Assembly: GCF_010731115.1 (NCBI RefSeq)
Contig: NZ_AP022616.1
Coordinates: 5,270,001 to 5,334,000, forward strand
Direction: 5' to 3'
Length of the DNA: 64,000 bases
Source: Mycolicibacterium phocaicum
GTDB taxonomy: Bacteria; Actinomycetota; Actinomycetes; Mycobacteriales; Mycobacteriaceae
This document shows positions 21,484 to 56,012 of the stretch, piece after piece. A model generated the notes under the pieces. The model was not told the origin of the DNA and did not search any database. It was given only the letters and a program-made list of their open reading frames with translations. The translations under genes were made by a program, and so were the position numbers. How positions within the stretch are numbered: the stretch's first letter is position 1; each line of letters opens with the position of its first letter.

Positions 21484-21548
21484 GTGAAAGTCGGCCCGGG
21501 ACGCGGTGACAACCGTTGGGGCTGTTCCGTTTTCCCGGGCCGCTTCCC

Positions 21549-21582
21549 GAACCCGGCGTGCACCTTTCAATGCACCGGGCTC
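21549..21582 (-). ncRNA. Group II intron domain V
   Basis: Thirty-four bases fold as the conserved catalytic hairpin: GAGCCCGGTGC at the 5' side, a GAAA tetraloop-type cap, and GCCGGGTTC closing the stem. It lies 15 bases beyond the end of the protein-coding part. Confidence 0.92.
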
Positions 21583-21596
21583 TCCACAAGACCCGG

Positions 21597-25845: not shown

Positions 25846-25849
25846 ATGA
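25766..25849 (+). CDS. Possible 27-aa leader peptide coupled to yrbEA
   Basis: AAAGGAG at 25749-25755 stands 10 bases before ATG 25766. The frame (MECHQVQNATRSS...) is Arg-rich and ends in TGA at 25847, overlapping the yrbEA ATG at 25846 as ATGA. This arrangement is typical of translational coupling. It may instead be chance, since yrbEA also has its own GGAGGG site. Confidence 0.35.
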   Translation: MECHQVQNATRSSRMPRRVMRDSGGTR

Positions 25850-27509: not shown

Positions 27510-27513
27510 GACA

Positions 27514-28869: not shown

Positions 28870-28911
28870 TCCGACACGATCCCACTAACGCACACAGAGA
28901 GGCCAACGACG

Positions 28912-33756: not shown

Positions 33757-33759
33757 GAG

Positions 33760-36486: not shown

Positions 36487-36881
36487 TGTTCAGCCACACG
36501 CCTATTGCGACCACCACGCGCCGCAGGACGCGGTTGGTCATCGGCGCGAGCGTCTGTCTTGGTATAGCGATCGCCACCGTATCAATCGCGCCTGCGTCGC
36601 CCGCATATGCGGATACCGTGGCCTATCTGGTCAACGTCACCGTGAGGCCCGGCTACAACTTCCCGAACGCCGACGCGGCAATCAGCTATGGGAACGAAAT
36701 CTGCGACAAAGTTGAAGCCGCGCGTGGTTACGCAGATCTGAAAAGCGACGTGATCGCCGACTTCAGCAACGCTGACGACTACCAGGCCGCCTATTTGATC
36801 AATCAGGCGGTGGGGGAGCTGTGCCCCACGGAGATCTGGCAGCTCCGTCAGCTGGCCGCGACACACTACGGGAGAACATAG
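36486..36881 (+). CDS. Secreted DUF732-family protein (131 aa)
   Basis: It has a signal peptide (basic RRRTRLVIGASVCLGIAIATVSI, cleavage near AYA-DT). The mature part has the DUF732 plan of two conserved cysteines (GNEICDKVE and VGELCPTE) and the NADAAISYG segment. It overlaps the previous stop (TAATG). DUF732 proteins are small secreted mycobacterial proteins of unknown function. Confidence 0.8.
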   Translation: MFSHTPIATTTRRRTRLVIGASVCLGIAIATVSIAPASPAYADTVAYLVNVTVRPGYNFPNADAAISYGNEICDKVEAARGYADLKSDVIADFSNADDYQAAYLINQAVGELCPTEIWQLRQLAATHYGRT

Positions 36882-37367
36882 ATGATCGTGAAACCTACTG
36901 CTGCGGCGATGATCTCATGTGCAACCCTCACCGTGAGCCTTGCGGTGGCTCCGTTCGCGTCCGCCGATAATAAGCGACTCAACAACAGTGTCGTCGCCAA
37001 CGTTTACACCATCCAACACGACGCCGGTTGCGCCAATGACGTGACGATGAATCCTCAGCTGCAGCTCGCCGCGCAGTGGCACACCGACGACGTGCTCAAC
37101 GACCGCTCTCTGGACGCCGACATCGGATCCGATGGTTCCAGTGCGCAAGACCGTGCGCGCGCGGCCGGCTACACCGGGGCTGTTGCCGAAACTGTCGCAA
37201 TCAATCCAGCACTGGCCATCAACGGCATCGAAATCCTCAACCAGTGGTACTACCGGCCGGACTACAAAGCGATCATGTCGAACTGCGCGTACACGCAAAT
37301 GGGCGTCTGGTCGGAAAACCGCCTCGACCGAAGCGTTGTTGTTGCGGTATACGGAAAGCCGGCTTGA
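36882..37367 (+). CDS. Secreted CAP-domain protein (161 aa)
   Basis: Signal peptide ending near PFASA-DN, then a short CAP/SCP-like domain: NVYTIQHDAGC, LQLAAQWHTDDVLNDR, GAVAETVAINP, YRPDYKAIMSNCAYTQMGVWSE. It starts directly after the DUF732 stop. CAP proteins of this size accompany several mce operons; ligand binding is suspected but unproven. Confidence 0.8.
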   Translation: MIVKPTAAAMISCATLTVSLAVAPFASADNKRLNNSVVANVYTIQHDAGCANDVTMNPQLQLAAQWHTDDVLNDRSLDADIGSDGSSAQDRARAAGYTGAVAETVAINPALAINGIEILNQWYYRPDYKAIMSNCAYTQMGVWSENRLDRSVVVAVYGKPA

Positions 37368-37398
37368 TACAGCCCCTCCGATGAAAGGAGCCATCGTA

Positions 37399-37503
37399 GT
37401 GGACCCCGATTACGACATCAGCGACGAAGTCGAGTACTTCATGAACTGGCTGCCATGGGCGCTCCGCGGTGTTTATCCTCCGCCAGCCAATCCACCTGTA
37501 TAG
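37399..37503 (+). CDS. Possible small protein (34 aa) in the mce operon
   Basis: GTG 37399 stands 9 bases after AAAGGAG (37384-37390). The product reads VDPDYDISDEVEYFMNWLP, then a Pro-rich end; it is acidic and has no signal peptide. The good ribosome site and position in an otherwise dense operon support it, but a chance frame cannot be excluded. Confidence 0.4.
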   Translation: MDPDYDISDEVEYFMNWLPWALRGVYPPPANPPV

Positions 37504-37558
37504 CAACATGATTCGACAACAAGGAAATCCTTGCATCACCGAAAGCGACGTACCCGTC

Positions 37559-38458
37559 ATGACCGAACCTGGCAAGATCGCCGTCCGATTACTTCGCACC
37601 GCGCTCATCGGAATTCTGGTTCTGATCCTGTGGAACTCGGTACGCGCCAAGGCCGACACCGTCGAGCAACTCTTAGTGCCCTCCGCTGCAATGGGCCGCG
37701 ACATCCCGGTGACGTTCGCACCGGGTGGCCGCCATGCCGTGGTGTTGCTGGACGCGTTCAACGCCGCGCCAGACGTGAGCAACTGGATCACCGCTGGTAA
37801 CGCAGTGAAAACCCTTGCTGGGAGGGGTGTATCGGTTGTCGCCCCGGCGGGCGGCGCATGGAGCATGTATACCGACTGGGAGATGGACGGCAGCAAGCAG
37901 TGGGAGACCTTCTTGTCGACCGAGCTGCCGAACTGGCTGGTCGCCAACAAGGGACTGGCGCCCGGTGGCCACGCCATCGTTGGCGCCGCTCAAGGCGGAA
38001 CTGCCGCGCTCACGTTGGCGGCCTTCCACCCCGATCGGTACCGGTACGCCGGCTCGATGTCAGGTTTCCTCACTCCGTCCAACACATTTCTCAACGGTGC
38101 GATCGCGGCAGGCTTGGCGCAATTCGGCGGCGTCAACACTCAGACAATGTGGGGCGCCGCCCAATTAGGGCGATGGAAGTGGCACGATCCCGATGCGCAC
38201 ATACAACTGTTGAACGACAACAACACTCGCCTATGGATCTACAGCCCGGCGACCCTGACCTGTAGCGACCCCGCCGCGATGATCGGATACTGCGATCAAG
38301 CGCAAGGCAGCAATCGCAGTTTCTACGGCCACTACCGCTCGGTTGGCGGGCACAATGGGCACTTTGACATCCCCCCTGACGGACAGCACGACTGGAGTAG
38401 TTGGGGCCCTCAGCTTGCGGCAATGTCCGCCGATGTATCAGCGACCCTCGCGTCATGA
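37559..38458 (+). CDS. Antigen-85/MPT51-like secreted protein lacking the nucleophile serine (299 aa)
   Basis: N-terminal signal segment (LLRTALIGILVLILW, cleavage near AKA-DT) and an alpha/beta-hydrolase fold typical of FbpA-C: VPSAAMGRDIPVTF, GGAWSMYTDWE, and GQHDWSSWGPQL with the catalytic-type His. At the nucleophile elbow, where Ag85 has VGLSMAG, this protein has VGAAQGG, so Ser is replaced by Ala144. It is therefore probably non-catalytic, like MPT51, perhaps binding mycolates or sugars. ATG 37559 is the best start; ATG 37508 is in frame upstream. Confidence 0.8.
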   Translation: MTEPGKIAVRLLRTALIGILVLILWNSVRAKADTVEQLLVPSAAMGRDIPVTFAPGGRHAVVLLDAFNAAPDVSNWITAGNAVKTLAGRGVSVVAPAGGAWSMYTDWEMDGSKQWETFLSTELPNWLVANKGLAPGGHAIVGAAQGGTAALTLAAFHPDRYRYAGSMSGFLTPSNTFLNGAIAAGLAQFGGVNTQTMWGAAQLGRWKWHDPDAHIQLLNDNNTRLWIYSPATLTCSDPAAMIGYCDQAQGSNRSFYGHYRSVGGHNGHFDIPPDGQHDWSSWGPQLAAMSADVSATLAS

Positions 38459-38736
38459 ACACCCGGCAAGTGCGTGAAATCCGCCGCGTAGCCGGATTGT
38501 TGGCTGTTGCCGTAGGAACCTGCATCACAGCGGGCCTCAGCAGCGCCAACGCCGCGGCAGACCCGGGCACTGACCCCTGCGCCAACTCAACCTTTCTCTT
38601 TTGCAGGATGATGCCGATCTCGCCCGAGCTTGACCACGACATCGATCTCACCACAGCTACTGCAGACACAACTGCGGCCACGGCGCCAACCGGGCTTGCT
38701 CCCCGTAACGACATACGAGCCGACCAGGGGCAATGA
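38455..38736 (+). CDS. Small secreted protein of unknown function (93 aa)
   Basis: ATG overlaps the previous stop. A signal peptide (VAGLLAVAVGTCITAGLSSANA) is followed by a 60-residue mature region with two cysteines in DPCANSTFLFCRMMP and an acidic LDHDIDLT motif. Small proteins with DPC...FLC and a DHDIDLT-like box recur at the ends of mce clusters. Function unknown. Confidence 0.65.
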   Translation: MNTRQVREIRRVAGLLAVAVGTCITAGLSSANAAADPGTDPCANSTFLFCRMMPISPELDHDIDLTTATADTTAATAPTGLAPRNDIRADQGQ

Positions 38737-38785
38737 CCGTGCGCACTGCACCTCGACACCCACTGACTGAAAGAAGGGCCTCCCC

Positions 38786-39874
38786 ATGGGCGTTCAAATT
38801 GATGTGACGGGGCTGAGCAAGTCCTTTGGGTCGTCGAAGATCTGGGAGGACGTCACGTTGACGATCCCTGCCGGTGAGGTCAGCGTGATGCTGGGCCCGT
38901 CCGGTACCGGTAAGTCGGTGTTCTTGAAGTCGCTGATCGGTCTACTCAAGCCGGAGCGGGGTTCGATCGTGATCGACGGCACGGACATTCTGCAGTGTTC
39001 GGCCAAGGAGTTGTACGAGATCCGGACCCTGTTCGGTGTGTTGTTCCAGGACGGTGCGCTGTTCGGCTCGATGAACATCTATGACAACACAGCCTTTCCG
39101 CTGCGCGAGCACACCAAGAAGTCCGAGTCCGAGATCCGCAAGATCGTGATGGAGAAGCTCGACATTGTGGGTATGCCCAACGACGGGCACAAGTTCCCAG
39201 GTGAGATTTCCGGTGGTATGCGCAAGCGTGCGGGGCTGGCGCGGGCGTTGGTGCTCGACCCGAAGATCATCCTGGTCGATGAGCCGGACTCGGGTCTGGA
39301 CCCCGTTCGTACCGCCTACCTGTCGCAGCTGCTGATCGACATCAACGCCCAGATCGACGCGACGATCTTGATCGTGACGCACAACATCAATGTGGTGCGT
39401 ACCGTGCCGGACAACATCGGCATGCTCTACCGCAAGCATCTGGTGATGTTCGGCCCGCGGGAGGTGTTGTTGACCAGTGAGGAGCCGGCGGTCAAGCAGT
39501 TCCTCAATGGTCGTCGTATCGGTCCGATCGGTATGTCCGAGGAGAAGGACGCCGCGACCGCTGCTGCCGAGCAGGCCGCTCTGGATGCCGGGCATGCCGA
39601 TGGTGGTGTGGATGAGATCGAGGGCGTGCCGCCGCAGATCGTGGTGACGCCGGGTATGCCGGTGCGTCAGGGCGTGGCGCGGCGTCAGGCTCGGGTGCGC
39701 TCGATCCTGCACACCCTGCCGCCCGCCGCGCAGGCGGCGATCCTAGAAGACCTCAACAACAACCCAGCCGCAGGCGGGGAGCCGACGGAACCCGTTGTTG
39801 GTAGGCACATTGCCAGGAGTCCGGCGATGGCGACCAGCGGCGGATTGAATGGGACACCCTGGGGCACAACATGA
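38786..39874 (+). CDS. mceG: MceG/Mkl-type ATPase of the Mce importer (362 aa)
   Basis: An ABC ATPase of the MlaF group: Walker A GPSGTGKS, Q-loop in LFQDGALFG, signature SGGMRKR, Walker B IILVDEPDSGLDP, and H-loop in VTHNINVV. After the nucleotide domain comes the mycobacterial MceG extension ending in LHTLPPAAQAAILEDL. The last 35 residues (NNNPAAGGEPTEPV onwards) look unlike that family and may be read into foreign DNA. In M. tuberculosis mceG stands alone; here it closes the mce operon, 49 bases after the previous gene. Confidence 0.93.
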   Translation: MGVQIDVTGLSKSFGSSKIWEDVTLTIPAGEVSVMLGPSGTGKSVFLKSLIGLLKPERGSIVIDGTDILQCSAKELYEIRTLFGVLFQDGALFGSMNIYDNTAFPLREHTKKSESEIRKIVMEKLDIVGMPNDGHKFPGEISGGMRKRAGLARALVLDPKIILVDEPDSGLDPVRTAYLSQLLIDINAQIDATILIVTHNINVVRTVPDNIGMLYRKHLVMFGPREVLLTSEEPAVKQFLNGRRIGPIGMSEEKDAATAAAEQAALDAGHADGGVDEIEGVPPQIVVTPGMPVRQGVARRQARVRSILHTLPPAAQAAILEDLNNNPAAGGEPTEPVVGRHIARSPAMATSGGLNGTPWGTT

Positions 39875-42631: not shown

Positions 42632-44113
42632 GAGCAATTGTCAATACCTGTGGATCGGGGTGTTTCAGGCGACCTCCGTTTCGGTGTGTTGATCGCCGTC
42701 TGACGGTGGTGTCGGTGGGGTGATGTCGGTGGGCCGTTCGAGCAGTTTGCCTTTGTGGAAGACCGCTCCGGCGCGGACGAGGGCGACCAGATGTGGGGCG
42801 TTGACGGCCCGCCAACGGGCTTGGGCTGCGTCGATCAGCTTGTAGGCCATGGCCAATCCAGCGGCCCGCGATCCCGGACCCTTGGTGACCTTCGTTCTCA
42901 AACGCACTGTGGCGAAGGTGGATTCGATCGGATTCGTGGTACGCAGATGGATCCAGTGCTCGGCGGGGTAGTGGTAGAACTCCAGCAGGACATCGAGGTC
43001 GTCGACGATCTTGGCGACCACTTTCGGGTACTTCGCGCCGAAGGCAACCGCGAAGGCCTTGACCGCGACCTGAGCTTTGTCGATGTCTTCGGCGTTGTAG
43101 ATGTCCTTGATGGCCGCCAGCGCGGCCGGATGCGCTGACTTCGGCAGTGCGGAAAGGACGTTGGCCTGCTTGTGGAACCAGCAGCGCTGCTCTCGGGTCT
43201 TCGGGAATACCTCCCGCACCGCCTTCCAGAACCCGAGCGCGCCATCGCCGACGGCCAGCACTGGGGCGGTCATGCCGCGTCGTTTGCAGTCGCGCAGCAG
43301 ATCCGCCCACGACTCGCATGACTCCCGATAGCCGTCGGTGATCGCCACGAGCTCTTTGCGGCCGTCAGCGCGCACGCCGAGCATCACCAGCAGGCACAGC
43401 TTCTCCTGGTCCAGGCGGACCTTGAGGTGAATGCCGTCGACCCACAGGTAGACGTAGTCGCTGCCGGACAGGTCCCGGGCAGCGAACGTACGGGCTTCGT
43501 CTTGCCACTGCGCGGTCAGACGGGTGATCGTGGTGGCCGACAACCCGGCACCCGAGCCGAGGAACTGCTCGAGTGCGGGCCCGAAGTCGCTGGTCGATAG
43601 GCCGTGCAGATACAGCAGCGGCAGCACCTCACTCATCTGCGGGGACTTGCGTGCCCAGGCCGGCAGGATCGCCGAGGAAAACCGCTGCCGCTCACCAGAA
43701 TCGGGGTCGACACGGCGATCGTTGACCCGCGGCGCCTTCACCTGCACGGCACCGGCCGCGGTCAGCACCTCACGCGGCTGGTGATAGCCGTTGCGGACCA
43801 CCAGTCGGTGACCGTTCTCGTCGAGCTGATCAGCGAATGCGGCCACGTACGCGGCGACCTCGGCCTGCAGGGCAGCGGCCAACATCTGCCGGGCTCCGTC
43901 GCGGACGATCTCGTCCAACAACGACCGGCCGGCCTCGCCGCCGTTGGCCTCCTCGGCATCGTGAACTACGGTGAGCATGGGCGTACCTTCCCAACCAGCG
44001 CGCCAACGCCGGTCTTGATCGAATACCTGATTCCGTGATGATCATCCTCGGGAAGGTGCGCCCACTTTCAGGCCGCCTCCTCGGGCCTCATCCACAGGTA
44101 TTGATCATTGCTC
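42632..44113 (-). mobile_element. IS256-family element, type 2, copy 1 (1482 bp)
   Basis: The ends are inverted repeats of about 24 bp with two mismatches (GAGCAATTGTC... and GAGCAATGATC...). A 9-bp target duplication CGCACTCAT flanks it (42623-42631 and 44114-44122). The transposase it encodes is identical to that of copy 2 at 52734-54215, which lies in the opposite orientation. Confidence 0.95.
42665..43978 (-). CDS. IS256-family (Mutator) transposase, copy 1 (437 aa)
   Basis: DDE transposase with VYLWVDGIHLKVR (Asp), VLAVGDGALGFWKAV (Asp), EQRCWFHKQANVL and TNPIESTFATVRLRT (Glu). The protein is identical in all 437 residues to that of copy 2. Complete, so likely active. It differs from the type 1 transposase at 24166. 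Confidence 0.95.
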   Translation of the reverse strand: MLTVVHDAEEANGGEAGRSLLDEIVRDGARQMLAAALQAEVAAYVAAFADQLDENGHRLVVRNGYHQPREVLTAAGAVQVKAPRVNDRRVDPDSGERQRFSSAILPAWARKSPQMSEVLPLLYLHGLSTSDFGPALEQFLGSGAGLSATTITRLTAQWQDEARTFAARDLSGSDYVYLWVDGIHLKVRLDQEKLCLLVMLGVRADGRKELVAITDGYRESCESWADLLRDCKRRGMTAPVLAVGDGALGFWKAVREVFPKTREQRCWFHKQANVLSALPKSAHPAALAAIKDIYNAEDIDKAQVAVKAFAVAFGAKYPKVVAKIVDDLDVLLEFYHYPAEHWIHLRTTNPIESTFATVRLRTKVTKGPGSRAAGLAMAYKLIDAAQARWRAVNAPHLVALVRAGAVFHKGKLLERPTDITPPTPPSDGDQHTETEVA

Positions 44114-44118
44114 CGCAC

Positions 44119-45192
44119 TCATTGCCCGATCGTCGTTAGCGGTAGGTCCACGATGGTCTGGGATGACCACGAATGAATGGCGATTTGGCGAAGGTGCTTG
44201 ACTTCTAGTCCCTTCCCGCCTGGCTGAAAATCTGGGTTCTCCTCTAACAAGAACCGGGCAGTCGTCTCCTCCTCGGGGTAACAGCATGCATCTTTATCGG
44301 GGCCACCCGCGGTGATTAGGAGTTGCTGATTACAAGGTTTGTCGTGGTCCGTGACGAGTTTGGTCAGGCGCACCAGTAGCTCACTGACCAGATCGCAGGT
44401 GTGCATGTCAAGTGCTATCTCGAAGCCGAGACCTGAAGGTAGAAGGTGGCTTTCGGACTCTGAACAGATCACGTTGGCATAGAATCCCGCGCCGTTTGGA
44501 AGAGATACCTGGTCACCGAGGTCTGGCCAATGGCGGAGGAGTCGGTCGGGGTCGTCTGCAATCTCGGCGTTCAGCTGGGCCCAAGCCTCGCGGTCGTATC
44601 GGCATGTCGCCATTGCATCAAGCAGCGATTCGATGACCGCGTCCTGGTCGCTGACTTTCGGCGGCAGAGCGTCCATTGAATCGCTGAACCGTACGGCAAG
44701 CTGGCAACCCTGTATTCCTGTGAAGTTTCGACTGCCGACTGACTGCTGCAAGCTCCGACGAAAGCGTCGCATCATCGCGGCCGCTCGTCTGCGGGACGAG
44801 TCCGCGAACACGACGCAATCCAGTCCCCACTCGCCGTCGGGGCCTGTGACCACGAAGTCCGGCGGATCGTTACCGATAACCACGCTGTCAAATGGGAATG
44901 CACCACGCTGGGTCAAGTAGTCGTGGCGGTAGCGGTCTAGGTGGTGTGCTTCCATTTCCGATTTGGACATGCAATGGGGAAACCCGGGAACCTTGTAGGC
45001 AGTTTCTGCTCCCACCTGAATGAACTTCTCGCCGGTCTCGGCCGCGGTGGCGATCAAGTACGGACCCCCAAGCATGTCTGAACGTTGCCACAGCTTCGCC
45101 ACGGCGGGACATAGTTGGGTGTTATCGGTACGCGGCTGTAGCCGCGATGTCATCGTCCGGGTATCGATACTCGACGGGAAATCAAGGCTCAA
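44119..45192 (-). CDS. Protein of unknown function (up to 357 aa), end of the accessory operon
   Basis: No family recognised. It contains PPDFVVTGPDGEWGLDCVVF, vaguely like a PD-(D/E)XK core but without the lysine, and several tryptophan and histidine-rich parts. The longest start (45192) overlaps the upstream gene by 11 bases; ATG 45153 is an alternative. The stop lies within the 9-bp target duplication of IS256 copy 1, so the insertion just missed the gene. It is the last gene of the run that diverges from bilABCD. Confidence 0.6.
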   Translation of the reverse strand: MSLDFPSSIDTRTMTSRLQPRTDNTQLCPAVAKLWQRSDMLGGPYLIATAAETGEKFIQVGAETAYKVPGFPHCMSKSEMEAHHLDRYRHDYLTQRGAFPFDSVVIGNDPPDFVVTGPDGEWGLDCVVFADSSRRRAAAMMRRFRRSLQQSVGSRNFTGIQGCQLAVRFSDSMDALPPKVSDQDAVIESLLDAMATCRYDREAWAQLNAEIADDPDRLLRHWPDLGDQVSLPNGAGFYANVICSESESHLLPSGLGFEIALDMHTCDLVSELLVRLTKLVTDHDKPCNQQLLITAGGPDKDACCYPEEETTARFLLEENPDFQPGGKGLEVKHLRQIAIHSWSSQTIVDLPLTTIGQ

Positions 45193-46849
45193 GCAGATCG
45201 ACTAGATGCCGACCGTCGGATGAACCAACCAGTTCGAGGTTGAGTTTGGCGCGTGCAGCGAGTTGCAGGGGGGTTATGCCTTCTACTAGTGCGGCATGGG
45301 TGATGCGATCAAGACCGGCGCTGACAAGTGGAGCAGCAGTGCGTAGCGCTGTGCTCAACGCGATGGAATTGGTTGTCCCACCGTGCATCAGGATGTTTCG
45401 CTGTCGGTAGAAGCGGCGCAGGGCAGTTCGCATGTGTGCGTTGACATCTTCAAGCGTGGGCCTGGGATTGGCGATTAGGTGGGCCATGCGGCTCTCAGAC
45501 GCTCTGTCCGTCGCTTTCTTTAGTGAAAGCTTGCGGCCTGACCGAATTGCTTCGGCAGTTATGCGGGCCCGCTCACTGTTCACTTCGTTGGTCTTTAGTT
45601 CCAAGCTCAGCCGGTCTGGGACTGGCGGGGTATGCCGCCTGGACAGGGTGGTCAGTTCGCCTCGGGGCCAGGACGCCGCCACCAGCGCCGCCATTCGGTC
45701 GACGGCGACTACGCCACGACCGTCTCGCGCGTCGTCTGCATCTGGTGTCGTGAGCAACGCTTCAATCGCCGCCCAGCCACCAGAGACAGCGGGGCCGGGG
45801 GGCCCGTAGTTCAGCGGTGCCGCGAGCTCAAGTGCGTCGTCGACTGCAGTTGGTGTGCTGACCTGGTATACCTTGCGCTCTGCCTCGAGAGACAAAACGA
45901 ACGCGGCACGCGATTCCTTGGCGAGTGCGATCGTCTGGATGCGGCCGTCGCCCTTCACCCAAACGTCGCCTGACGGCTGCGGACCTCTTCGTCCGATCCT
46001 GCGTCCATGATTGCTTCTGGCTTTGAGGCGATCGATCGTATTGATGACTTGTTCAGCCGCCGCGAAACCGTCCTTGGCGCAGACTGAGTAGCGAAATCCG
46101 CCATTCAAACGCAGACCGTCAACTAAGGCCGATGCTGGCTCTAGCCAATCGCGCATCTGGCCGACAGACATCCAGTTGTCAATCGGCACAGCAAGTTCTT
46201 TGTACTTGGGCAGCGACGCGAATGGAACAACGACGTCGTATGTGCGGGCTGTCCCATTGGCGAGTTCCTGTGCGCTGTCGAATAAATCGGCGAGCGTGGC
46301 TCCGTTGGAGCTGCGAAGAGCTCCGACCCATGTCCTGAGGTAGCGCATGCTGTATCCGCAGTCAAGCAAGTGCGAAGCGATTGCGCGGGCGCAACGCTCC
46401 GGTGACGCCGGGGTCGTGGCTTCGACGGCACGTTCCCAACCTGACATGTAGTCGCGATTAACGAATGCGATGAGTTCGGACAGGTGCCGATAGTGACGGC
46501 TCCCGTGTGGCACGTTGCTTCTGAGCACCTTGGTGAGTTGAGTGCGAACCTCGCGCTCCCCGACGCCTCGATCTCTTCCGGCGAGGCGCTCGGCATCCTT
46601 TGCTAGCCATGCGACGGTTCCTGTGGAGAGCACGCCATTCGCGCACCAATCGGCAGCTTCCAGCAACTCTCTTAGAGTTAGGACCGTGCCCGCGTCCCAG
46701 AGGCGTCTTTGCCACGGGGTCATCTCGCTGAAGAAGTCGCTGAGCCTTGCGACGATGTGCTCAGCGTATGAAGAGCCAACTAGGGGGCTCGCTAGATGAC
46801 AGCCTGACGGATTGCTCACCGGCACATCTTCGCGTACAGTCGCTATCAC
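45182..46849 (-). CDS. HEPN-motif protein, candidate RNase effector (up to 555 aa)
   Basis: A large soluble protein. The C-terminal quarter has the HEPN pattern: an early helix with GGWAAIEALL, and RNILMH (Arg484-N-I-L-M-His489), the RX4H motif of HEPN ribonucleases, followed by a hydrophobic helix. ApeA-like and other abortive-infection proteins carry such domains. The N-terminal 300 residues are unknown. The start is uncertain (46849, or ATG 46723). It is in one operon with the unknown gene downstream and lies near the bil operon, suggesting a defence role. This is inference. Confidence 0.6.
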   Translation of the reverse strand: MIATVREDVPVSNPSGCHLASPLVGSSYAEHIVARLSDFFSEMTPWQRRLWDAGTVLTLRELLEAADWCANGVLSTGTVAWLAKDAERLAGRDRGVGEREVRTQLTKVLRSNVPHGSRHYRHLSELIAFVNRDYMSGWERAVEATTPASPERCARAIASHLLDCGYSMRYLRTWVGALRSSNGATLADLFDSAQELANGTARTYDVVVPFASLPKYKELAVPIDNWMSVGQMRDWLEPASALVDGLRLNGGFRYSVCAKDGFAAAEQVINTIDRLKARSNHGRRIGRRGPQPSGDVWVKGDGRIQTIALAKESRAAFVLSLEAERKVYQVSTPTAVDDALELAAPLNYGPPGPAVSGGWAAIEALLTTPDADDARDGRGVVAVDRMAALVAASWPRGELTTLSRRHTPPVPDRLSLELKTNEVNSERARITAEAIRSGRKLSLKKATDRASESRMAHLIANPRPTLEDVNAHMRTALRRFYRQRNILMHGGTTNSIALSTALRTAAPLVSAGLDRITHAALVEGITPLQLAARAKLNLELVGSSDGRHLVDLLEP

Positions 46850-46957: not shown

Positions 46958-48088
46958 CTATCCCAATTCTTCGGTGGCGATCATCTCCAGCTTGGTGACA
47001 TCCGCGTCGGTGATCTTGCCCCGAAGCGAGCTCGTCAGCTTCCAATCCTTGGTCTGGTTGGCGAAGTTCCCTGCGACCACGGATACCCCGACGCCGAGTT
47101 GTGCGGCTAGCAGCAGGAGTTCTTGTCGGTTGGTAGCGCGGGCAATGCGTTCCCGCGCATCACCTGGAAACAGGGTGTCGGCGGCAAACGCATCCGCTTC
47201 CGTTTCGGCGGGGTCTTGGCTTGCTTTCTCGCGATCGATGTCGAGGAAAGTTGTGCGACGTGGGTGCTTAATGATGTGGCCCAGTTCGTGCGCGAGGTTG
47301 AACCAGAAGATGTCTGGTTTGCGATGACGTTCAGTGATGCCGATAACAGGGCGATCGGCATCAAGCCACCATGTCGCAGCGTTCATCCTGGTACCCGGCA
47401 CTTCTCGCACGAACGTGAGGACGACGCCCGCGCGTATCAAGGCGGTGCGCGCAGCAAGGAACCCGTCCGTAATCGGCATGGCGGTCATCGCAGGCAGAGT
47501 GCGCGAGACCTTGCGTAGCTCTCGTAGGCTTAACGGTGCAATGTCGCCGTGTTGTTCTGCTGACTGTTCGACGAGCCGAAGCCACAGCGCAGTGTTATTT
47601 AGGTCGACAGTAAACGCTTGACTACGACGGAACGAAACGCGCCGGCGAATCCAGTTGTGTTCGAATGCATCCGGCGACGCTACTTGAAAGAATTTGAGAA
47701 TCTTGTCAACGGTCGTCGCGTCGTCATCGCCGTCCGAAATGATCTCGTTCCGACGCATGGTCGCCATGTCGAACTGCCGAGCCCATGTAATATGCTCTTG
47801 GAGAGCAAGTTTCGACTTCCGAGTGCTTTCAAACGCCTGATACTCGGCGTCCGCCCGCGTCCAAAATGCTGCTGCGACACCTAAGGTCCGTTCGAAGCGG
47901 ACGGCTACGTCGCCGGTAATCCCAATTGAACCGTTGACGATCTGGTTGACGTGTTTCGGCGAGAGGCTCGCGCGCTCGGCCAAGTCGGACTGTCGCCATT
48001 TCCTCGCCGCGAGAATCTCCCTGAGGATCTCGCCGGGGTGTATTGACCACGCGGGGACGAACTCCGCGGGAGTGCGTGTCGCAGTCAT
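46958..48088 (-). CDS. XRE-family HTH + ImmA/IrrE metallopeptidase fusion (376 aa)
   Basis: The N-terminal HigA-like helix-turn-helix (HPGEILREILAARKWRQSDLAERASLSPKHVNQIV, residues 17-51) is followed by a linker and an IrrE/ImmA peptidase domain with the zinc motif HELGH at residues 267-271 and a downstream acidic ETEADAFAADTLFP. Proteins of this kind are antitoxins, repressors or stress proteases; RosmerTA-type defence pairs also use them. It overlaps the 126-aa gene by ATGA, so the two form a likely pair. It diverges from the ubiquitin-like operon and may control it. Confidence 0.85.
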   Translation of the reverse strand: MTATRTPAEFVPAWSIHPGEILREILAARKWRQSDLAERASLSPKHVNQIVNGSIGITGDVAVRFERTLGVAAAFWTRADAEYQAFESTRKSKLALQEHITWARQFDMATMRRNEIISDGDDDATTVDKILKFFQVASPDAFEHNWIRRRVSFRRSQAFTVDLNNTALWLRLVEQSAEQHGDIAPLSLRELRKVSRTLPAMTAMPITDGFLAARTALIRAGVVLTFVREVPGTRMNAATWWLDADRPVIGITERHRKPDIFWFNLAHELGHIIKHPRRTTFLDIDREKASQDPAETEADAFAADTLFPGDARERIARATNRQELLLLAAQLGVGVSVVAGNFANQTKDWKLTSSLRGKITDADVTKLEMIATEELG

Positions 48089-48465
48089 CCAATCTTCCTG
48101 ATCGCAGAACGGCCATCTACCGCTACATCGTGCAGTTCGAGCATCGTGACCTCCTCTGGTCGCGTGTGCGGCGCGGTTACCGGTTCCTTCGTCTTGCGAT
48201 TCAGGGCCATTGCGGTCAGCGCGGCACTTCGATGCGTGAGGCCGATTAGCGATGAGTTGGTGTCAGTGCCTACCGGGATCATTGCCACTAGTCCGACGGC
48301 CAAAGCGTCACGCACTGAGGGCTCCGCCATGCGGAGGATGTGCAGAAGCATCATCACTTCACGTTCGCTACCTGGCCATGTCTGCGTCAAATGGGCGGGC
48401 GACATCAGTAGGGCTGCCAAATCCCCGTCGGGGACGGTCATGAGCACCCTCGCATTATCCCTCAT
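48085..48465 (-). CDS. Unknown small protein paired with the XRE-ImmA/IrrE gene (126 aa)
   Basis: Mostly helical; LLHILRMAEPSVRDALAVGLVAMIPV is the hydrophobic core. An alternative ATG at 48441 gives 118 residues. Its stop overlaps the start of the XRE-peptidase gene. Its position suits a toxin, a target protein or a co-regulator. I recognise no family. The divergent bilA ORF begins 78 bases away. Confidence 0.55.
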   Translation of the reverse strand: MRDNARVLMTVPDGDLAALLMSPAHLTQTWPGSEREVMMLLHILRMAEPSVRDALAVGLVAMIPVGTDTNSSLIGLTHRSAALTAMALNRKTKEPVTAPHTRPEEVTMLELHDVAVDGRSAIRKIG

Positions 48466-48542
48466 TCGGGGAAGGGTTACAACCGATCCAAGCCTGTAAT
48501 GGCCAAAACATCTTTACCATTGACGCGATAAAATGGCGGTGT
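48466..48542. promoter_or_regulatory. Divergent promoter region of the bil operon and the XRE-peptidase operon
   Basis: Seventy-seven AT-richer bases separate the two operons. TAAAAT at 48531 is a possible -10 toward bilA. A shared operator for the XRE protein would be expected here; no perfect dyad is evident. Confidence 0.45.
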
Positions 48543-49070
48543 ATGGTTGAGCTATTGATTGCTCTGATGAACGCCAATCGACCAAGTGTCGGGGAAGTAG
48601 GACAACTACCCATGCGGATTCATACGTATGCCGGCGGTGGCGACGTGCAGACTCATCCCGATGTAGCGCCTGGAGCGCCGTTGCGGGAGTGCATCGTCGT
48701 CGAGGTCGATGAGCTCGTCTACCGAGTGGGGGACGAGGCGGCGCTCGACATCGAGCAGACGGTCTTTGCGCTGTTCGGCGAGGAGCCTGGGCATGTGATC
48801 CGGCATCACTGCCGAGAGATCGCCGTCACGGTTAGCTACGCCGGGCAGGACCAGAAATTTAGCGTCCACCCTGCCGAACACGTCAAGCGGTTGCAGAAGC
48901 GGGCGGCGAAGGCGTTTCAGCTGGATGCTGCGACGTCAGCGGACCTTGCTATGCGGCTGCCAGGCGCGACCACTGATCTGGTGGCCTCGTATCCGATTGG
49001 CGCCTACGTCCCGCGGGGCACGTGTGCCGTCACCGTCGACCTGATTCACGTGACGCGTCCTCAAGGCTGA
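48543..49070 (+). CDS. bilA: Bacterial ubiquitin-like protein, BilA-type (up to 175 aa)
   Basis: The C-terminal half reads as a beta-grasp Ubl: KFSVHPAEHVKRLQKRAAKAF, LPGATTDLV, SYPIGAYVPRGTC and AVTVDLIHVTR; the N-terminal half (CIVVEVDELVYRVG and a second strand set) is plausibly another. It ends in Gly with no extension (VTRPQG), so the C-terminus could be adenylated directly. ATG 48543, 48567 and 48612 are possible starts. It is the first gene of an Ubl-E2-JAMM-E1 operon, the bilABCD order. In Bil systems the Ubl is conjugated to phage tail proteins. Identification rests on pattern plus gene context. Confidence 0.8.
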   Translation: MVELLIALMNANRPSVGEVGQLPMRIHTYAGGGDVQTHPDVAPGAPLRECIVVEVDELVYRVGDEAALDIEQTVFALFGEEPGHVIRHHCREIAVTVSYAGQDQKFSVHPAEHVKRLQKRAAKAFQLDAATSADLAMRLPGATTDLVASYPIGAYVPRGTCAVTVDLIHVTRPQG

Positions 49071-49075
49071 TCGGG

Positions 49076-49558
49076 ATGGTATGCCCCGGTGCCGACCCCG
49101 CGAAGACGCGGTTGGAACGTGATCTTGCGCGTGGTGACGTTGAATGTGGAGTCGAAGCCGGCATGTGGCGAGTGGTCTCCCTGCGGTGGCCGGAGCTGAT
49201 CGTTGCGATCACCGCAGGGGACGGCAACGAGGTGGCGATGCGGCTGCTGGTCGACGACTATCCCGTGCAAGCGCCGGCGGGCGAGCCGTGGAGCATCGCG
49301 GACGGGGGGCCACTGCCTCAGGCGCGGTGGCCCACTAGTCCGCTGGACGTCGCGACATTCCGGAAGGACTGGTCGCCGTCGAACGGTAACGCGCCGTACG
49401 TTGCTTGTGACCGGACATGCCTTCGTACCCACCCGGATTGGGCGACGGCGCACCCTGATCGAGCGTGGAATCCCGGCCGCACTATCGCGTTTTATCTACA
49501 AGAGATGCACCGCGAACTCCAATGCGCGTCGGTTCCTCAGCTGGATACGGTGCAATGA
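49076..49558 (+). CDS. bilB: E2-like ubiquitin-conjugating protein, BilB-type (160 aa)
   Basis: ATG 49076, 5 bases after bilA. The N-terminal strands (WRVVSLRWPELIVAITAG, MRLLVDDYPVQAPA) suit a UBC fold. The active-site region is YVACDRTCLRTHPDW, with Cys111 the likely thioester cysteine and Cys115 the alternative, then a C-terminal helix (TIAFYLQEMHREL). Such short E2s lack classical HPN but keep Cys and His. The next gene overlaps by ATGA. Function inferred from motif and operon. Confidence 0.78.
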   Translation: MVCPGADPAKTRLERDLARGDVECGVEAGMWRVVSLRWPELIVAITAGDGNEVAMRLLVDDYPVQAPAGEPWSIADGGPLPQARWPTSPLDVATFRKDWSPSNGNAPYVACDRTCLRTHPDWATAHPDRAWNPGRTIAFYLQEMHRELQCASVPQLDTVQ

Positions 49559-50148
49559 CGGACACCAATCGGCGACTGCAGATCACCAAGCGGCAATTCG
49601 ACGACCTCATGACGGAGTTGGCTCGCCGCGGCCGAGGTCACCGTGAATCGGGCGCGTTCTTGCTTGCCCGGCGTGTATCGGCAAGCGCATCGGCCGAGGA
49701 CGGCCCCTTAGACGTCGTGGCCATCGCGTACTACGACGACCTTGATCCGGACTGCCTGACCGGCGCGATCGCGTTCAGCGGCTCAGGGTATGCGGTCCTG
49801 AACGCGCGTTGCCGTGCCGATGACCTACGCGTCGTCGGTGACATTCATACGCACCCATCAACATGGGTGCAGCAGAGCGCGATTGACGCCGCGCACCCGA
49901 TGGTGGCGAAATCTGGCCATGTCGCGTTGATTGCACCGAACTACGGCCGAGGTCGGATTGCGTTGGAAGACATCGGTGCCCACGTATTCGAAGGTCCCGG
50001 ATGGACATCATTTTTCGGTGATCAAGTATCCACCGTTGTTTCCGTCACTGGATTGACTGCTACTGCTTGGTTCGCCATTTGGGTGCGTACCGCCGTGGAT
50101 CGAGTCCGGGTTGCGCTGACAAGGAGGGGGTCGAACCGGCATGCTTGA
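49555..50148 (+). CDS. bilC: JAB/JAMM-domain deubiquitinase-like peptidase, BilC-type (197 aa)
   Basis: A complete JAMM metalloprotease motif is visible: Glu31 (ESGAFLL), then His98-x-His100-x7-Ser108-x2-Asp111 in DIHTHPSTWVQQSAID. It should process the Ubl or remove it from targets. A hydrophobic stretch near the C-terminus (VSVTGLTATAWFAIWV) is an extra feature. The start overlaps bilB and the end overlaps bilD, so all three are translationally coupled. Confidence 0.9.
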   Translation: MTDTNRRLQITKRQFDDLMTELARRGRGHRESGAFLLARRVSASASAEDGPLDVVAIAYYDDLDPDCLTGAIAFSGSGYAVLNARCRADDLRVVGDIHTHPSTWVQQSAIDAAHPMVAKSGHVALIAPNYGRGRIALEDIGAHVFEGPGWTSFFGDQVSTVVSVTGLTATAWFAIWVRTAVDRVRVALTRRGSNRHA

Positions 50149-51550
50149 TGCTGACCAAATTGACCGGACCGTACTGCTCGCGGTCCACGATGGGCGGGCG
50201 GCCACGCTTGAGGAAGCTCAAGCTGCGCACGAAGCGACTGGCATCATCGTCGTCGCTGACGACCACGTTTGTCATTCAGTGTGCGGACAAGCCGCACTCC
50301 TGACCGCCGTAGCCACCGCGGTGCGCGCATTCGGAAACGTGCGAGTTGTCGCCGAGGGTCCCGAGGCAGCACTCCTTGCCGGGATAGGGCGAGGATCGAC
50401 GGTCGAATCATTTGTGGAAGCGGAGGGGGCGCAAGTGATTTCGCCCCTCGATGCGAGCATCGATGCTGAGAAGTGGCCGGTTCTCCTCCTCGGGCCGACT
50501 GCAGTTGCTCCCGAATCGAAGGCCGGTACGGCGCCGGTCCTCAGGGCAAAATGGGGAACGTGGATCGCAGCTGTCGAACCCGCATCCCCGCCTGCGAAAT
50601 CAAGGTACGCACAGGACTGCGGCGCCGTTCTGGCGCCCATCGCAGCCGCCGCGCTAGGCATCAGCGAGGTGTTCCAATCGCAACTGGCTCGCCCAGGTAA
50701 CGACGCTGGCTACCGAACTGTCACTCTAAATCTTTGGAATCCGGGGGCATTCGATGATGGCCCGCCGCTTCGTTATGCACCTGCACAGTGGTGGTTAGTG
50801 GGGCTCGGGCACCTCGGCCAGGCTTACGGGTGGGTGCTCAGTTGGCTGAACTACGCCGATCCAACCCAAGTGCAGGTAGTCCTACAAGACACAGACAAGA
50901 CGGCGATTGCCAACCGCAGCACCGGAGTCCTTACCCCAGCTGCCTCACACGACCTCATGAAGACCAGGCTGGTTGCCGCCGCACTCGACTCAATTGGTTA
51001 TGACACCCGGATTGTCGAACGCAGCCTCGACGACAATCTGAAGATCTCGGCCGCCGATGTCCATGTCGCCCTCATCGGTGTCGATAATCTCCCAGCGCGC
51101 CGGGCGATCTCAAATGTAGGTTGGAAGCTCGCGATCGACACTGGATTAGGTGCCGGCGCCACCGACTTCTGCTCGATCCTTCTACGACGATTCCCCAGCA
51201 ATACTTCGAGCACGCAAGTCGTCGGTTGGACTGATCCCGTCGTGGGTGGAGCCCCTGTACCCGATACACCAGCGTTCGCCGACCTCAGCGAGCGCATGGA
51301 CAGGTGCGGGCTGGTCGTGCTCGCAGGCAAAGCAGTCGGAGCATCGTTCGTCGGCATCGTGGCCGCTACGCTTGCTGTGGCCGAAGCGGTGCGAGAGCTT
51401 CATGGCGGACGCGGCACAGATGTCACGAACCTGAACCTGGACAGCGTCGAACTCCATCTCGCGCCTTCAACGGCTGAAGGTGACGTTATTCCATTGCCGC
51501 TCCGGACATTAGGCGACGCGGCGGACAAGTCGGTGGACCTGTCGCAATGA
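50141..51550 (+). CDS. bilD: E1-like ThiF-family adenylyltransferase, BilD-type (469 aa)
   Basis: The C-terminal ThiF/E1 domain carries the ATP motif VGLGHLGQ (residues 220-227), an Arg and Lys further on (Arg259, Lys274) and Asp315. A catalytic-type Cys389 lies in RMDRCGLVVLAGKAVGASFVG. The first 200 residues form a separate alpha/beta region, possibly an inactive Rossmann domain. It would adenylate the BilA glycine and pass it to E2. Last gene of the operon; the frame is complete. Confidence 0.88.
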   Translation: MLDADQIDRTVLLAVHDGRAATLEEAQAAHEATGIIVVADDHVCHSVCGQAALLTAVATAVRAFGNVRVVAEGPEAALLAGIGRGSTVESFVEAEGAQVISPLDASIDAEKWPVLLLGPTAVAPESKAGTAPVLRAKWGTWIAAVEPASPPAKSRYAQDCGAVLAPIAAAALGISEVFQSQLARPGNDAGYRTVTLNLWNPGAFDDGPPLRYAPAQWWLVGLGHLGQAYGWVLSWLNYADPTQVQVVLQDTDKTAIANRSTGVLTPAASHDLMKTRLVAAALDSIGYDTRIVERSLDDNLKISAADVHVALIGVDNLPARRAISNVGWKLAIDTGLGAGATDFCSILLRRFPSNTSSTQVVGWTDPVVGGAPVPDTPAFADLSERMDRCGLVVLAGKAVGASFVGIVAATLAVAEAVRELHGGRGTDVTNLNLDSVELHLAPSTAEGDVIPLPLRTLGDAADKSVDLSQ

Positions 51551-52046: not shown

Positions 52047-52430
52047 CTATCGGCGAGGCCGTTCGAAAACTGTTAAGTAGTCCGATTTTTGAAGACGTTG
52101 CGCCAGTTTCATTGGGCTGGTCCCACTGCCGTTCTCGATCGCGGGATCTGCGTCGTGGTCGATGAGCAGCTCAACGAGTTGGACTGTGCCGTCTTTGCCG
52201 AAGACAGCGCGACTGAGCGGCGTGTTACCCCACTTGTCTTGCGGGTCGACATGGGCGCCGGCTTCGAGGAGTGTTTTTGCGGCGCCGTAGTTCTTGTTGA
52301 TGCAGGCCATGTGCAGTGGGGTGAGGCCGTCGGCGTCGGGCTCGTTGATGTCGAAGCCCTCGTCGAGCATCTGTTGGATGCTGTCCGGGCCGCCCCGGAC
52401 GGCCGCCTGATGCAGGGGGGTGCGAGCCAT
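52047..52430 (-). CDS. Ankyrin-repeat protein, candidate toxin immunity (127 aa)
   Basis: About three ankyrin repeats: ARTPLHQAAVRGG, DGLTPLHMACINKNYGAAKTLLEAGAHV and WGNTPLSRAVFGKDGTVQLVELLIDHDAD. ATG 52430 follows AAGGAGAG. It lies immediately downstream of the lysine-rich end of the toxin gene on the same strand. Ankyrin proteins are known immunity partners of polymorphic toxins, so that is the likely role. Confidence 0.8.
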   Translation of the reverse strand: MARTPLHQAAVRGGPDSIQQMLDEGFDINEPDADGLTPLHMACINKNYGAAKTLLEAGAHVDPQDKWGNTPLSRAVFGKDGTVQLVELLIDHDADPAIENGSGTSPMKLAQRLQKSDYLTVFERPRR

Positions 52431-52511
52431 CACAACTCTCCTTGTCCATCTAGGTTTGTAGCACTCTGACACGTGGCTCCCGCTGCCACCACCCGGCACC
52501 GCCGCGTCCGG

Positions 52512-52733: not shown

Positions 52734-54215
52734 GAGCAATGATCAATACCTGTGGATGAGGCCCGAGGAGGCGGCCTGAAAGTGGGCGCACCTTCCCGAG
52801 GATGATCATCACGGAATCAGGTATTCGATCAAGACCGGCGTTGGCGCGCTGGTTGGGAAGGTACGCCCATGCTCACCGTAGTTCACGATGCCGAGGAGGC
52901 CAACGGCGGCGAGGCCGGCCGGTCGTTGTTGGACGAGATCGTCCGCGACGGAGCCCGGCAGATGTTGGCCGCTGCCCTGCAGGCCGAGGTCGCCGCGTAC
53001 GTGGCCGCATTCGCTGATCAGCTCGACGAGAACGGTCACCGACTGGTGGTCCGCAACGGCTATCACCAGCCGCGTGAGGTGCTGACCGCGGCCGGTGCCG
53101 TGCAGGTGAAGGCGCCGCGGGTCAACGATCGCCGTGTCGACCCCGATTCTGGTGAGCGGCAGCGGTTTTCCTCGGCGATCCTGCCGGCCTGGGCACGCAA
53201 GTCCCCGCAGATGAGTGAGGTGCTGCCGCTGCTGTATCTGCACGGCCTATCGACCAGCGACTTCGGGCCCGCACTCGAGCAGTTCCTCGGCTCGGGTGCC
53301 GGGTTGTCGGCCACCACGATCACCCGTCTGACCGCGCAGTGGCAAGACGAAGCCCGTACGTTCGCTGCCCGGGACCTGTCCGGCAGCGACTACGTCTACC
53401 TGTGGGTCGACGGCATTCACCTCAAGGTCCGCCTGGACCAGGAGAAGCTGTGCCTGCTGGTGATGCTCGGCGTGCGCGCTGACGGCCGCAAAGAGCTCGT
53501 GGCGATCACCGACGGCTATCGGGAGTCATGCGAGTCGTGGGCGGATCTGCTGCGCGACTGCAAACGACGCGGCATGACCGCCCCAGTGCTGGCCGTCGGC
53601 GATGGCGCGCTCGGGTTCTGGAAGGCGGTGCGGGAGGTATTCCCGAAGACCCGAGAGCAGCGCTGCTGGTTCCACAAGCAGGCCAACGTCCTTTCCGCAC
53701 TGCCGAAGTCAGCGCATCCGGCCGCGCTGGCGGCCATCAAGGACATCTACAACGCCGAAGACATCGACAAAGCTCAGGTCGCGGTCAAGGCCTTCGCGGT
53801 TGCCTTCGGCGCGAAGTACCCGAAAGTGGTCGCCAAGATCGTCGACGACCTCGATGTCCTGCTGGAGTTCTACCACTACCCCGCCGAGCACTGGATCCAT
53901 CTGCGTACCACGAATCCGATCGAATCCACCTTCGCCACAGTGCGTTTGAGAACGAAGGTCACCAAGGGTCCGGGATCGCGGGCCGCTGGATTGGCCATGG
54001 CCTACAAGCTGATCGACGCAGCCCAAGCCCGTTGGCGGGCCGTCAACGCCCCACATCTGGTCGCCCTCGTCCGCGCCGGAGCGGTCTTCCACAAAGGCAA
54101 ACTGCTCGAACGGCCCACCGACATCACCCCACCGACACCACCGTCAGACGGCGATCAACACACCGAAACGGAGGTCGCCTGAAACACCCCGATCCACAGG
54201 TATTGACAATTGCTC
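52734..54215 (+). mobile_element. IS256-family element, type 2, copy 2 (1482 bp), inside the toxin gene
   Basis: Same length and transposase as copy 1, opposite orientation. A 9-bp target duplication CTCAGCCGC flanks it (52725-52733 and 54216-54224). The toxin reading frame is open across the restored site, which proves the insertion point. Confidence 0.95.
52869..54182 (+). CDS. IS256-family (Mutator) transposase, copy 2 (437 aa)
   Basis: Identical to the product at 42665-43978, with the same three acidic motifs. ATG 52869. Identity of the two copies indicates recent transposition in this strain. Confidence 0.95.
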   Translation: MLTVVHDAEEANGGEAGRSLLDEIVRDGARQMLAAALQAEVAAYVAAFADQLDENGHRLVVRNGYHQPREVLTAAGAVQVKAPRVNDRRVDPDSGERQRFSSAILPAWARKSPQMSEVLPLLYLHGLSTSDFGPALEQFLGSGAGLSATTITRLTAQWQDEARTFAARDLSGSDYVYLWVDGIHLKVRLDQEKLCLLVMLGVRADGRKELVAITDGYRESCESWADLLRDCKRRGMTAPVLAVGDGALGFWKAVREVFPKTREQRCWFHKQANVLSALPKSAHPAALAAIKDIYNAEDIDKAQVAVKAFAVAFGAKYPKVVAKIVDDLDVLLEFYHYPAEHWIHLRTTNPIESTFATVRLRTKVTKGPGSRAAGLAMAYKLIDAAQARWRAVNAPHLVALVRAGAVFHKGKLLERPTDITPPTPPSDGDQHTETEVA

Positions 54216-56012
54216 CTCAGCCGCACCGGTCGGACGGGACTGGGCTTGAAGGTTCGCCAGGCGCCGCTGGGCGGTCGGGTCCTGAGCCAGGCGCGGATTG
54301 GTCTCCATGTTCTTTTGCAGCCAGTCCTTGTAATCGTCCTCATACATGCTGGTGGCGCTGCGCGGGTTCTCGAACTGGTGAGATCGGTTCGGACCGCGCG
54401 CCTCGAGCTGGTAATGGCTCGGATCATTGGACCATTCGAGCTTCTCCCGACGCGACAGCCCGTACTGCGTGGCCATGTCGTTGGTGGTCTTCTCTTCAAA
54501 ACCCGGCTTATGCCCGATATCCGGCGTGCCTTTGATGGGTTCGTACGTGTTCGGGTCCAGTGGAAGCCCGCTCTCGGGATCACGTTCGGCAGCGGCATGG
54601 ATGTCTTGTTTGGTTCCCTGCCGTAGCGGCGCCCGGCTGGTGATGTTGGTAGTGAGCCGCTGATCAGCAGCAGAGGGCGGCAACGCATGACTGAGCTCCC
54701 CACCGGGAATCACATCCCCAGCCGGCGGCCCATTCGGTGCCTTGGGCGTCTCGACGCCGGGCAGCGGCGGTTTCCCGGCGGTGCCGGCGGCGGCGATCTC
54801 CTCGCGTACCTGTGCTGGGTTGGGGACGGCCTTGGCGGCGTCAATGATCTCGTCGGTGTGCGTAACGACCTGTTTGGCGGCCAGTTCGGCGCCTTCTTCG
54901 GCGATCTTCTTGGCCGCCCCGGTGGGGGTGAACATGGTCGCCGCGTTGGCCACCGTCGACATCGCCCCGAGGGTTTGGTTGTCCGGCATGGCTTCTGAAG
55001 CGATCTGCAACCCGGCTGCGCCAACGTTGGCGACCGCCGCAGCGATCGCGGCGGCGCCGGCTGGCCCACCCACACCGGTCACTGCGACCGCGGCCCCCGC
55101 GACAATGACCGCTGTTTCCACCGGGTTGTTCTTCACGAACGTGAATACCGCTTTGCCGCCCGACGCCGTCGCTGAGGCCGCACTCGACACCGCGCTGCCG
55201 ACCGCGTTCGCTGCGCTGGACACGGTGCTGGTGATCGAGTCGAACAACCCCGCCGGTAGCGGTCCGCCGCCGGAGCCACCGACATGCAGCGGCGGATCCA
55301 CGTACACCGGCCACTTGGTGTCTGGGCGTGGGTCGATGACCTCAGAGAGCTGATACAAACCCGGACGCAGCTGACGCGCCACGTACGATGACGGCACCAA
55401 TTTGCCTGCGGCATCGCGGGTTTCGGCCGGGGCGAACATGCCGACGGTTTCCGCGGCCGGTGTGGCGCGGTTGATGGTCAAAAATCCGTTGGTGTGGGCC
55501 AACATCACGGTGTCGACCGGCGTGCGCACAAAGGTGGTGACCATGCGTACGCCGGTCGCGCTGGCGATGCGGGCAACCGTGCGCGTCCCAGTACCGGTGT
55601 TCTCAGCCAAGAAATCAAACCCTGCACCACGATCGGGATAGACGACGGATCCGCTGCTGGTGCGTTGGGCCGCACCGAGGCCGTCGGGTAAGACCTGCTG
55701 CACCGGCCCGGCGGGTGTCATCGAGGTCAGTCCGGCGACCGGGTCGGTGGGTAGTCCCGCGGCCCGTTGATCGGGTGTCGCTGCCGGATTGGGGATCGCG
55801 ACGGTGGTCGATCCGCTGAACGCTGCCATCGCTGCATCGGCGAATTCCTGCGCAGTCGATCCAGCGGCCGCAGCTACAGCCCCCGACCGGTTCGAACTGG
55901 CAAACCAGTACTGCCCGCCCGCGGTGAGCGCGACGGTGAGCACCATCGCAACCAAAGCCGGCCACCAACGAGCGACACGCCATGGCCGGTCACCCGGCAA
56001 AAAGTCCCCCAC
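54216..56012 (-). pseudogene. Membrane-anchored polymorphic toxin with GH-E-type nuclease domain, interrupted by IS256
   Basis: GTG 56012 follows CAGGGGGAA. The product has a basic N-terminus, one membrane helix (WWPALVAMVLTVALTAGGQYWF), an extracytoplasmic region, Ala/Gly-rich hydrophobic segments (residues about 310-370), then a C-terminal domain with DIGHKPGFEEKTTNDMATQYGL and SHQFENP, resembling GH-E/HNH-like toxin nucleases. The frame enters the IS after GAAEE and picks up about 20 foreign residues. The true end lies at 52512. The nuclease motif is upstream of the break, so a truncated toxin may still be active. Confidence 0.78.

Follow-up and report, generated by a model that had tools for sequence, protein, structure and literature searches.

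A stretch of 64,000 nucleotides (nt) from Mycolicibacterium phocaicum (assembly GCF_010731115.1, contig NZ_AP022616.1, positions 5,270,001–5,334,000), hereafter the window, carries a complete ubiquitin-like conjugation operon, bilABCD, that is almost certainly a Bil system. Bil systems have been described before and occur in many Actinomycetota. What is new here is (i) a two-gene cassette divergent from bilA, encoding a protein with a predicted RelE/HigB-like fold (X) and a helix-turn-helix (HTH)–M78 metallopeptidase, (ii) a spaced motif shared by the promoter regions between cassette and operon, and (iii) different modules beside near-identical operons. The whole is probably best explained as a complete Bil antiphage system with the divergent cassette as its control unit. 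On grounds of synteny, the functional unit is probably larger than the four genes of the first-pass annotation and includes the divergent genes at 46958–48465.

The operon occupies 48543–51550 as four intact plus-strand genes in series, neighbors overlapping or separated by a few bases (lengths in amino acids, aa; residue numbers of BilB and BilC are counted from the likely starts given):

48543..49070, plus strand: bilA, predicted tandem ubiquitin-like protein, Gly-terminated; likely start ATG 48612, 152 aa; 101.5 bits with the PADLOC BilA model
49076..49558, plus strand: bilB, E2-like protein, 160 aa, candidate catalytic Cys111; likely start ATG 49076; 161.1 bits with PADLOC BilB
49555..50148, plus strand: bilC, JAMM peptidase, 197 aa, basic C-terminal tail; likely start ATG 49555; 174.4 bits with PADLOC BilC
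50141..51550, plus strand: bilD, E1-like ThiF protein, 469 aa, with GLGHLGQA and Cys389 followed by Gly; 451.3 bits with PADLOC BilD

The first-pass annotation had described a Bil-type set in the order ubiquitin-like protein, E2, JAMM peptidase, E1 and had proposed a search with Bil profile models. The open reading frames (ORFs) and the matches to all four PADLOC models confirm the set, and this order, which is that of Bil, is found in the window and in the loci of its relatives. Pfam assigns BilB to DUF7665 (1.3e-36) and gives weak matches of BilC to Prok-JAB and of BilD to ThiF, both below cut-off. Searches of PDB sequences with BilB and BilD, as single and as profile queries, returned no match, and BilC weakly matched a solved BilC (expect value, E, 0.091). 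Among 12 actinobacterial-clade relatives, nine have a bilA ORF of 152–160 aa, and the first ATG is overlain by a promoter-like −10 box (48542–48547, recognized by consensus match alone); translation of bilA therefore probably starts at ATG 48612 rather than 48543.

Conservation was judged on relatives' loci, the best 80 of 124 found by a profile scan of genome contigs with alignment A1; a single-protein scan of the same contigs recovered no relative. The window BilA ends in Gly. The column of this reactive-type C-terminal Gly175 holds Gly in 76/76 aligned BilAs, and in 69 of the 76, the window included and across phyla, Gly is the final residue. A bare C-terminal Gly is hence the norm and does not support a separate actinobacterial architecture, which the first-pass annotation had raised as a possibility. 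When 71 BilAs are combined into a profile, it matches linear di-ubiquitin in one stretch (profile positions 4–116 out of 160, E as low as 2e-4) and polyubiquitin with an E of 1.5e-19; as predicted from these matches, BilA is two ubiquitin-like units in tandem. With the window BilA as a single query, the search of PDB sequences gave one chance-level match and no ubiquitin-chain match.

The predicted structure of BilB has an E2/UBC-like fold, which answers the fold check proposed for this protein. The motif around Cys111, Y-x-A/P-C-D-R, is the commonest version in the family, so that the active site, too, fails to mark out a separate actinobacterial form. The column of Cys111 holds Cys in 55/77 BilBs. 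The candidate catalytic Cys is absent from the other 22, and three (L027, L054, and L087) have no Cys in the core at all; in BilBs of this kind, either another residue acts or the E1 passes BilA on directly. In BilC, Glu31, His98, His100, Ser108, and Asp111 are each identical in all 78 rows that have the column (79-row alignment). The GLGHLGQA adenylation motif of BilD is present in 82/82 rows, and Cys389-Gly390 in all 81 of these 82 rows that have the column and in 36/36 of another set. The residues named at the outset for BilB, BilC, and BilD are thus present, and the BilC set and Cys389 are conserved. The lineage-specific traits lie elsewhere, in the upstream cassette and in the basic C-terminal tail of BilC, which measures 34–48 aa in 13/13 BilCs of the actinobacterial clade and at most 24 aa in the other 66 (tail region in the window, 50000–50148).

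Upstream of bilA, the cassette and the candidate operator are arranged as follows:

48085..48465, minus strand: X, RelE/HigB-like predicted fold, likely start GTG 48447, 120 aa; divergent from bilA, 4 nt overlap with the HTH-M78 gene
46958..48088, minus strand: HTH-M78, 376 aa, HigA-like N-terminus and IrrE/ImmA-type metallopeptidase (Pfam HTH_3, Peptidase_M78)
48513..48528, plus strand: TTWACY-N5-CGCGA, candidate operator in the divergent promoter region, best shared 16-mer

All 50 proteins of alignment A2, that of the window among them, share the M78 zinc ligands of HTH-M78 (His267, His271, and Glu295). For X, PADLOC gave no match at E 0.01. The divergent X and HTH-M78 pair lies beside bilA, in the same orientation, in five genera: Mycobacterium, Nonomuraea, Micromonospora, Actinomadura, and Amycolatopsis. 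These cassettes were counted by plain phmmer search, and M78 genes in general with a profile of the M78 domain, because an iterated HTH-M78 profile drifted to helicase fusions. Two minus-strand genes of 357 and 555 aa (44119–46849) lie downstream of the HTH-M78 gene; neither has a family match or was found in other Bil loci, and the 555 aa protein has, by eye, an R-x4-H stretch.

The motif emerged de novo as the best common 16-mer of the five divergent intergenic regions, scoring 23.0 bits; 60 shuffles gave a mean of 19.5, a standard deviation of 0.38, and a maximum of 20.7. It stands at offset 64–68 in all five. The 1.14 Mb of window and loci hold six sites, namely the five cassette promoters from which the pattern was built and one stray. 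Whole genomes hold fewer than one site per Mb (five in the window's genome, 0–5 in six others). Exact palindromes (arms of at least 6, gap of at most 20) are absent from the promoter regions of the window and L015; those present in L016, L019, and L023 have none in common.

Two Micromonospora loci separate operon and cassette. The bilABCD DNA of M. halophytica (L016), which has the cassette, is 89% identical to that of M. lupini (L017) from 36 bp inside bilA onward, and nothing upstream of bilA is similar. M. lupini and M. inaquosa (L018) have near-identical bilABCD genes without the X/HTH-M78 cassette and without the motif, and stay similar to each other upstream through two divergent genes unrelated to X/HTH-M78. 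In Pfam, this pair matches HATPase_c_2 (E 0.12 and 0.016) and a winged HTH (E 1.2e-4), all below cut-off. As far as these matches go, a kinase-like protein and a winged-HTH protein appear to be paired, reminiscent of the published CapK+CapS. According to PMC13373217 (EMBO J), capK+capS stands next to five Bil operons, and in the literature covered these are the sole instance in which switching of Bil is known. Either the cassette was swapped or the four bil genes moved alone; both leave near-identical operons beside different modules.

An M78 gene is a frequent neighbor of bilA beyond these cassettes. An M78 profile derived from eight of the upstream proteins, applied to loci with at least 3.5 kb before bilA or after bilD, found such a gene upstream of bilA in 47/61 loci, the nearest ending at most 1.2 kb from bilA in all 47, a figure that comes without a background rate from random loci. 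None starts within 3.5 kb after bilD (0/65 loci). One locus with too little sequence to enter the downstream count (L061) has a Pfam-confirmed M78 gene directly after bilD, and L019 has a weak M78 match 5.2 kb after it. Pfam finds M78 at E ≤ 0.01 in all 50 proteins scanned. These are the window protein, 46 more from the set of 47, and three whose loci have a shorter upstream region; L026 and L092 each have a second M78 gene, which was dropped. The 61 loci divide into 29 M78-UvrD fusions on the bilA strand, 14 small divergent M78 genes, four small same-strand ones, and 14 loci without M78. The M78-UvrD helicase fusions, of ~1,100 aa, stand directly before bilA (e.g., L029:1911-5387 and L053:2020-5415). 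Two were scanned at full length, with UvrD domains in both and a PD-(D/E)XK nuclease domain in one; the remainder were scanned over their first 330 residues.

Three of the loci without M78 have other modules in the slot before bilA, as identified by Pfam:

L085:4205-5306: Xre antitoxin and RES toxin genes
L088:4901-5329: Xre antitoxin
L080:3605-5246: HTH and AbiEi-like gene

The slot also holds what we take by eye to be a PIN-like protein in L020–L022 (L020:1553-2092) and a HigB-like protein in L045 (3303-3602), for which PDB searches gave no family match. Two further slot genes (L064:401-718 and L071:5120-5500) were labelled by eye among the PIN-like/HigB-like, toxin–antitoxin-like genes.

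Bil reportedly blocks infection by conjugating BilA to a tail protein of the phage (Hor et al. 2024). PMC12948488 describes the same attachment and block for another Bil system, and by analogy the operon here likely acts on phage by attaching BilA. The course of events that we infer, from conjugation and phage target to repression and signal, would run as follows. BilD would adenylate the C-terminal Gly of BilA, carry BilA on Cys389, and hand it to the E2 BilB, probably at Cys111. BilA would then be joined to its target, which by analogy would be a tail protein of the phage. BilC would take off misplaced BilA and need not mature BilA, because BilA already ends in Gly. HTH-M78, partnered by the HigB-fold X, would bind the shared promoter region at the candidate element 48513–48528 and keep bilA down, until an infection or DNA-damage signal acting via the M78 peptidase lifted the repression. 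On balance, gene arrangement and motif favor control of the operon by the cassette. More tentatively, and at somewhat under even chances, an M78 module at the bilA end may be an overlooked fifth Bil element across phyla, a sensor of infection or DNA damage that switches the pathway on and is exchanged as a unit. Its forms would be HTH-M78 paired with a toxin-like protein, whether of HigB fold or another, a small M78 protein, and the ~1,100 aa M78-UvrD-helicase fusion.

Several observations weigh against this account. The similarity between the M. halophytica and M. lupini loci also stops soon after bilD, not solely before bilA, which lowers confidence in a control role. A reversed-pattern control is no rarer than the motif (eight sites in the window's genome, 0–11 in the others); the weight of the motif therefore lies in its position and sharing and not in a genome-wide excess. 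Several of the 61 loci are near-duplicates or related, so that the counts do not equal independent events. The cassette of five genera, the promoter element, and the differing Micromonospora modules define a candidate control region that can be tested directly. Should the M78 association hold, Bil would include an infection sensor in most of the lineages sampled, which would bear on any heterologous test of Bil that uses bilABCD alone.

The cassette could instead be an independent HigBA-like toxin–antitoxin (or PD-Lambda-2-like) module that merely adjoins Bil or stabilizes the island, which we consider unlikely. HTH-M78 scores 47.1 bits with the HigA model (cut-off 47.7) and 109 bits with PD-Lambda-2_B, the B component of PD-Lambda-2, and the predicted fold of X, the HigA-like HTH, the toxin-type gene in first place, and the 4-nt overlap all recall HigBA; the Xre and RES pair of L085 lies in the same place. 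The antitoxin-like protein of the window is, however, fused to an M78 peptidase, no PADLOC model matches the neighboring X gene, and a catalytic HigB-type site in X is doubtful because its alignment contains no invariant His, Tyr, or Arg. The tie to bilA in five loci of five genera, with constant orientation and the motif at a fixed offset, argues against mere adjacency, and a CapK/CapS-like pair in the same place beside near-identical operons fits a control role. A guard function is less probable still. Here a HigB-like toxin would be restrained by an antitoxin dependent on Bil or its promoter, and phage interference with Bil would cause growth arrest. The variety of toxin–antitoxin-like pairs beside bilA speaks for it (RelE-fold with HTH-M78 in the window and four loci, Xre with RES in L085, HTH with AbiEi in L080), whereas the active-site-type residues of X are not conserved, its toxicity is hypothetical, and the 29 M78-helicase fusions, two of them scanned in full, are unlike toxin–antitoxin pairs.

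That the four genes serve host protein modification or a stress response instead of phage defense is improbable. According to PMC13373217, related Bub operons lack demonstrated phage protection, and defense by the window copy is putative, but each of the four proteins matches a model from a system that is described as antiphage, and presence within the genus is patchy (2/297 sampled genomes). The least credible proposal is that the segment arrived with Bil as one composite transposon. Two 1,482 bp insertion sequence (IS) copies, 100% identical and inverted, do bracket 8.6 kb with Bil:

42632..44113, minus strand: IS256/Mutator-type element, left copy, with its own 9-bp target duplication
52734..54215, plus strand: same element, right copy, inverted, with a transposase domain and a different 9-bp target duplication

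A composite transposon would have a single target duplication at the outer ends of the pair, whereas the duplications here differ from copy to copy, and the candidate is rejected on this ground. The genome also holds another four near-identical, full-length copies at other sites, so that the two are most likely separate insertions.

Set beside known systems, the preferred reading of bilABCD with a control cassette is closest to Bil itself (BilABCD, ISG15-like), which shares the four genes and their order, the predicted tandem-ubiquitin BilA, the E2, the JAMM peptidase, and the E1. It differs in the BilC tail of the window's clade, in the HigB-fold/HTH-M78 cassette upstream, and in the genus, which seldom has Bil. 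CapH+CapP and CapK+CapS, as described in PMC13373217, likewise place an HTH protein with an M78-type peptidase, or a kinase-like and winged-HTH pair, beside an immune operon. In CapH+CapP, the peptidase is activated by ssDNA and cleaves the repressor. HTH-M78 partially matches PADLOC capP (35.5 bits) and has the zinc ligands, but the separate HTH repressor and M78 peptidase genes that define CapH+CapP are not found in the window, which has both in one 376 aa protein, plus X. Operon types 6a–6e of Iyer et al. 2006 (PMC1779556) and the later Bub systems also join E1-like, E2-like, and JAB genes, with a ubiquitin-like protein in some. Type 6d differs in comprising a ubiquitin-like protein, JAB, E1, and E2 with an alpha-helical protein; the text of PMC1779556 covered here mentions no upstream M78 gene and has 0 occurrences of IrrE. 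A literature search turned up neither a mycobacterial Bil system nor an M78 gene next to Bil, a weak absence given that the main Bil papers lie outside its coverage.

The operon was most likely gained by transfer, which we infer because Bil is so rare in the genus, family, and order. A BilD search returned 351 proteins at E ≤ 0.001 among 8000 scored candidates. Among the 120 matches listed, named sources are mostly Actinomycetota, and the closest match is 73% identical. This protein is also the nearest neighbor of the window BilD in a quick 87-row tree that omits four loci and places the window in an actinobacterial clade of 23 rows with a Shimodaira–Hasegawa-like approximate likelihood ratio test (SH-aLRT) support of 100. 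The second Bil match in the genus comes from a metagenome bin, on a 19,678-base contig; mis-binning is possible, since in the tree its BilD falls with one bin from Actinomycetes and one from Acidimicrobiales. In the family, the window alone has a convincing match among 301 genomes, and in the order 5/397 genomes have one. Three family-wide matches of 18.8–22.5 bits and three of ~20 bits in the order were judged spurious and dropped. The flanking neighbors on the two sides of the island lie far apart in a relative (G020).

The G+C content of the segment is 0.58–0.65, slightly under that of the region to its right (0.63–0.68). The description as an IS-rich island with other conflict genes is partly borne out, in that two identical IS copies flank the segment and an ORF with a GH-E nuclease domain and an ankyrin-repeat gene lie nearby. 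The former (54144–56012, minus strand) is abutted by the right IS copy and looks like a polymorphic toxin; the latter (52047–52499, minus strand) matches the PADLOC candidate PDC-M72A. Farther to the left, a 910 aa ORF (20494–23226, minus strand) joins, by eye, a reverse-transcriptase-like part to an IS3-integrase-like part. An apparent mce-type operon, also recognized by eye, spans 25771–39874 with its ATPase, of which a second copy with 89% DNA identity lies at genome position 4981692.

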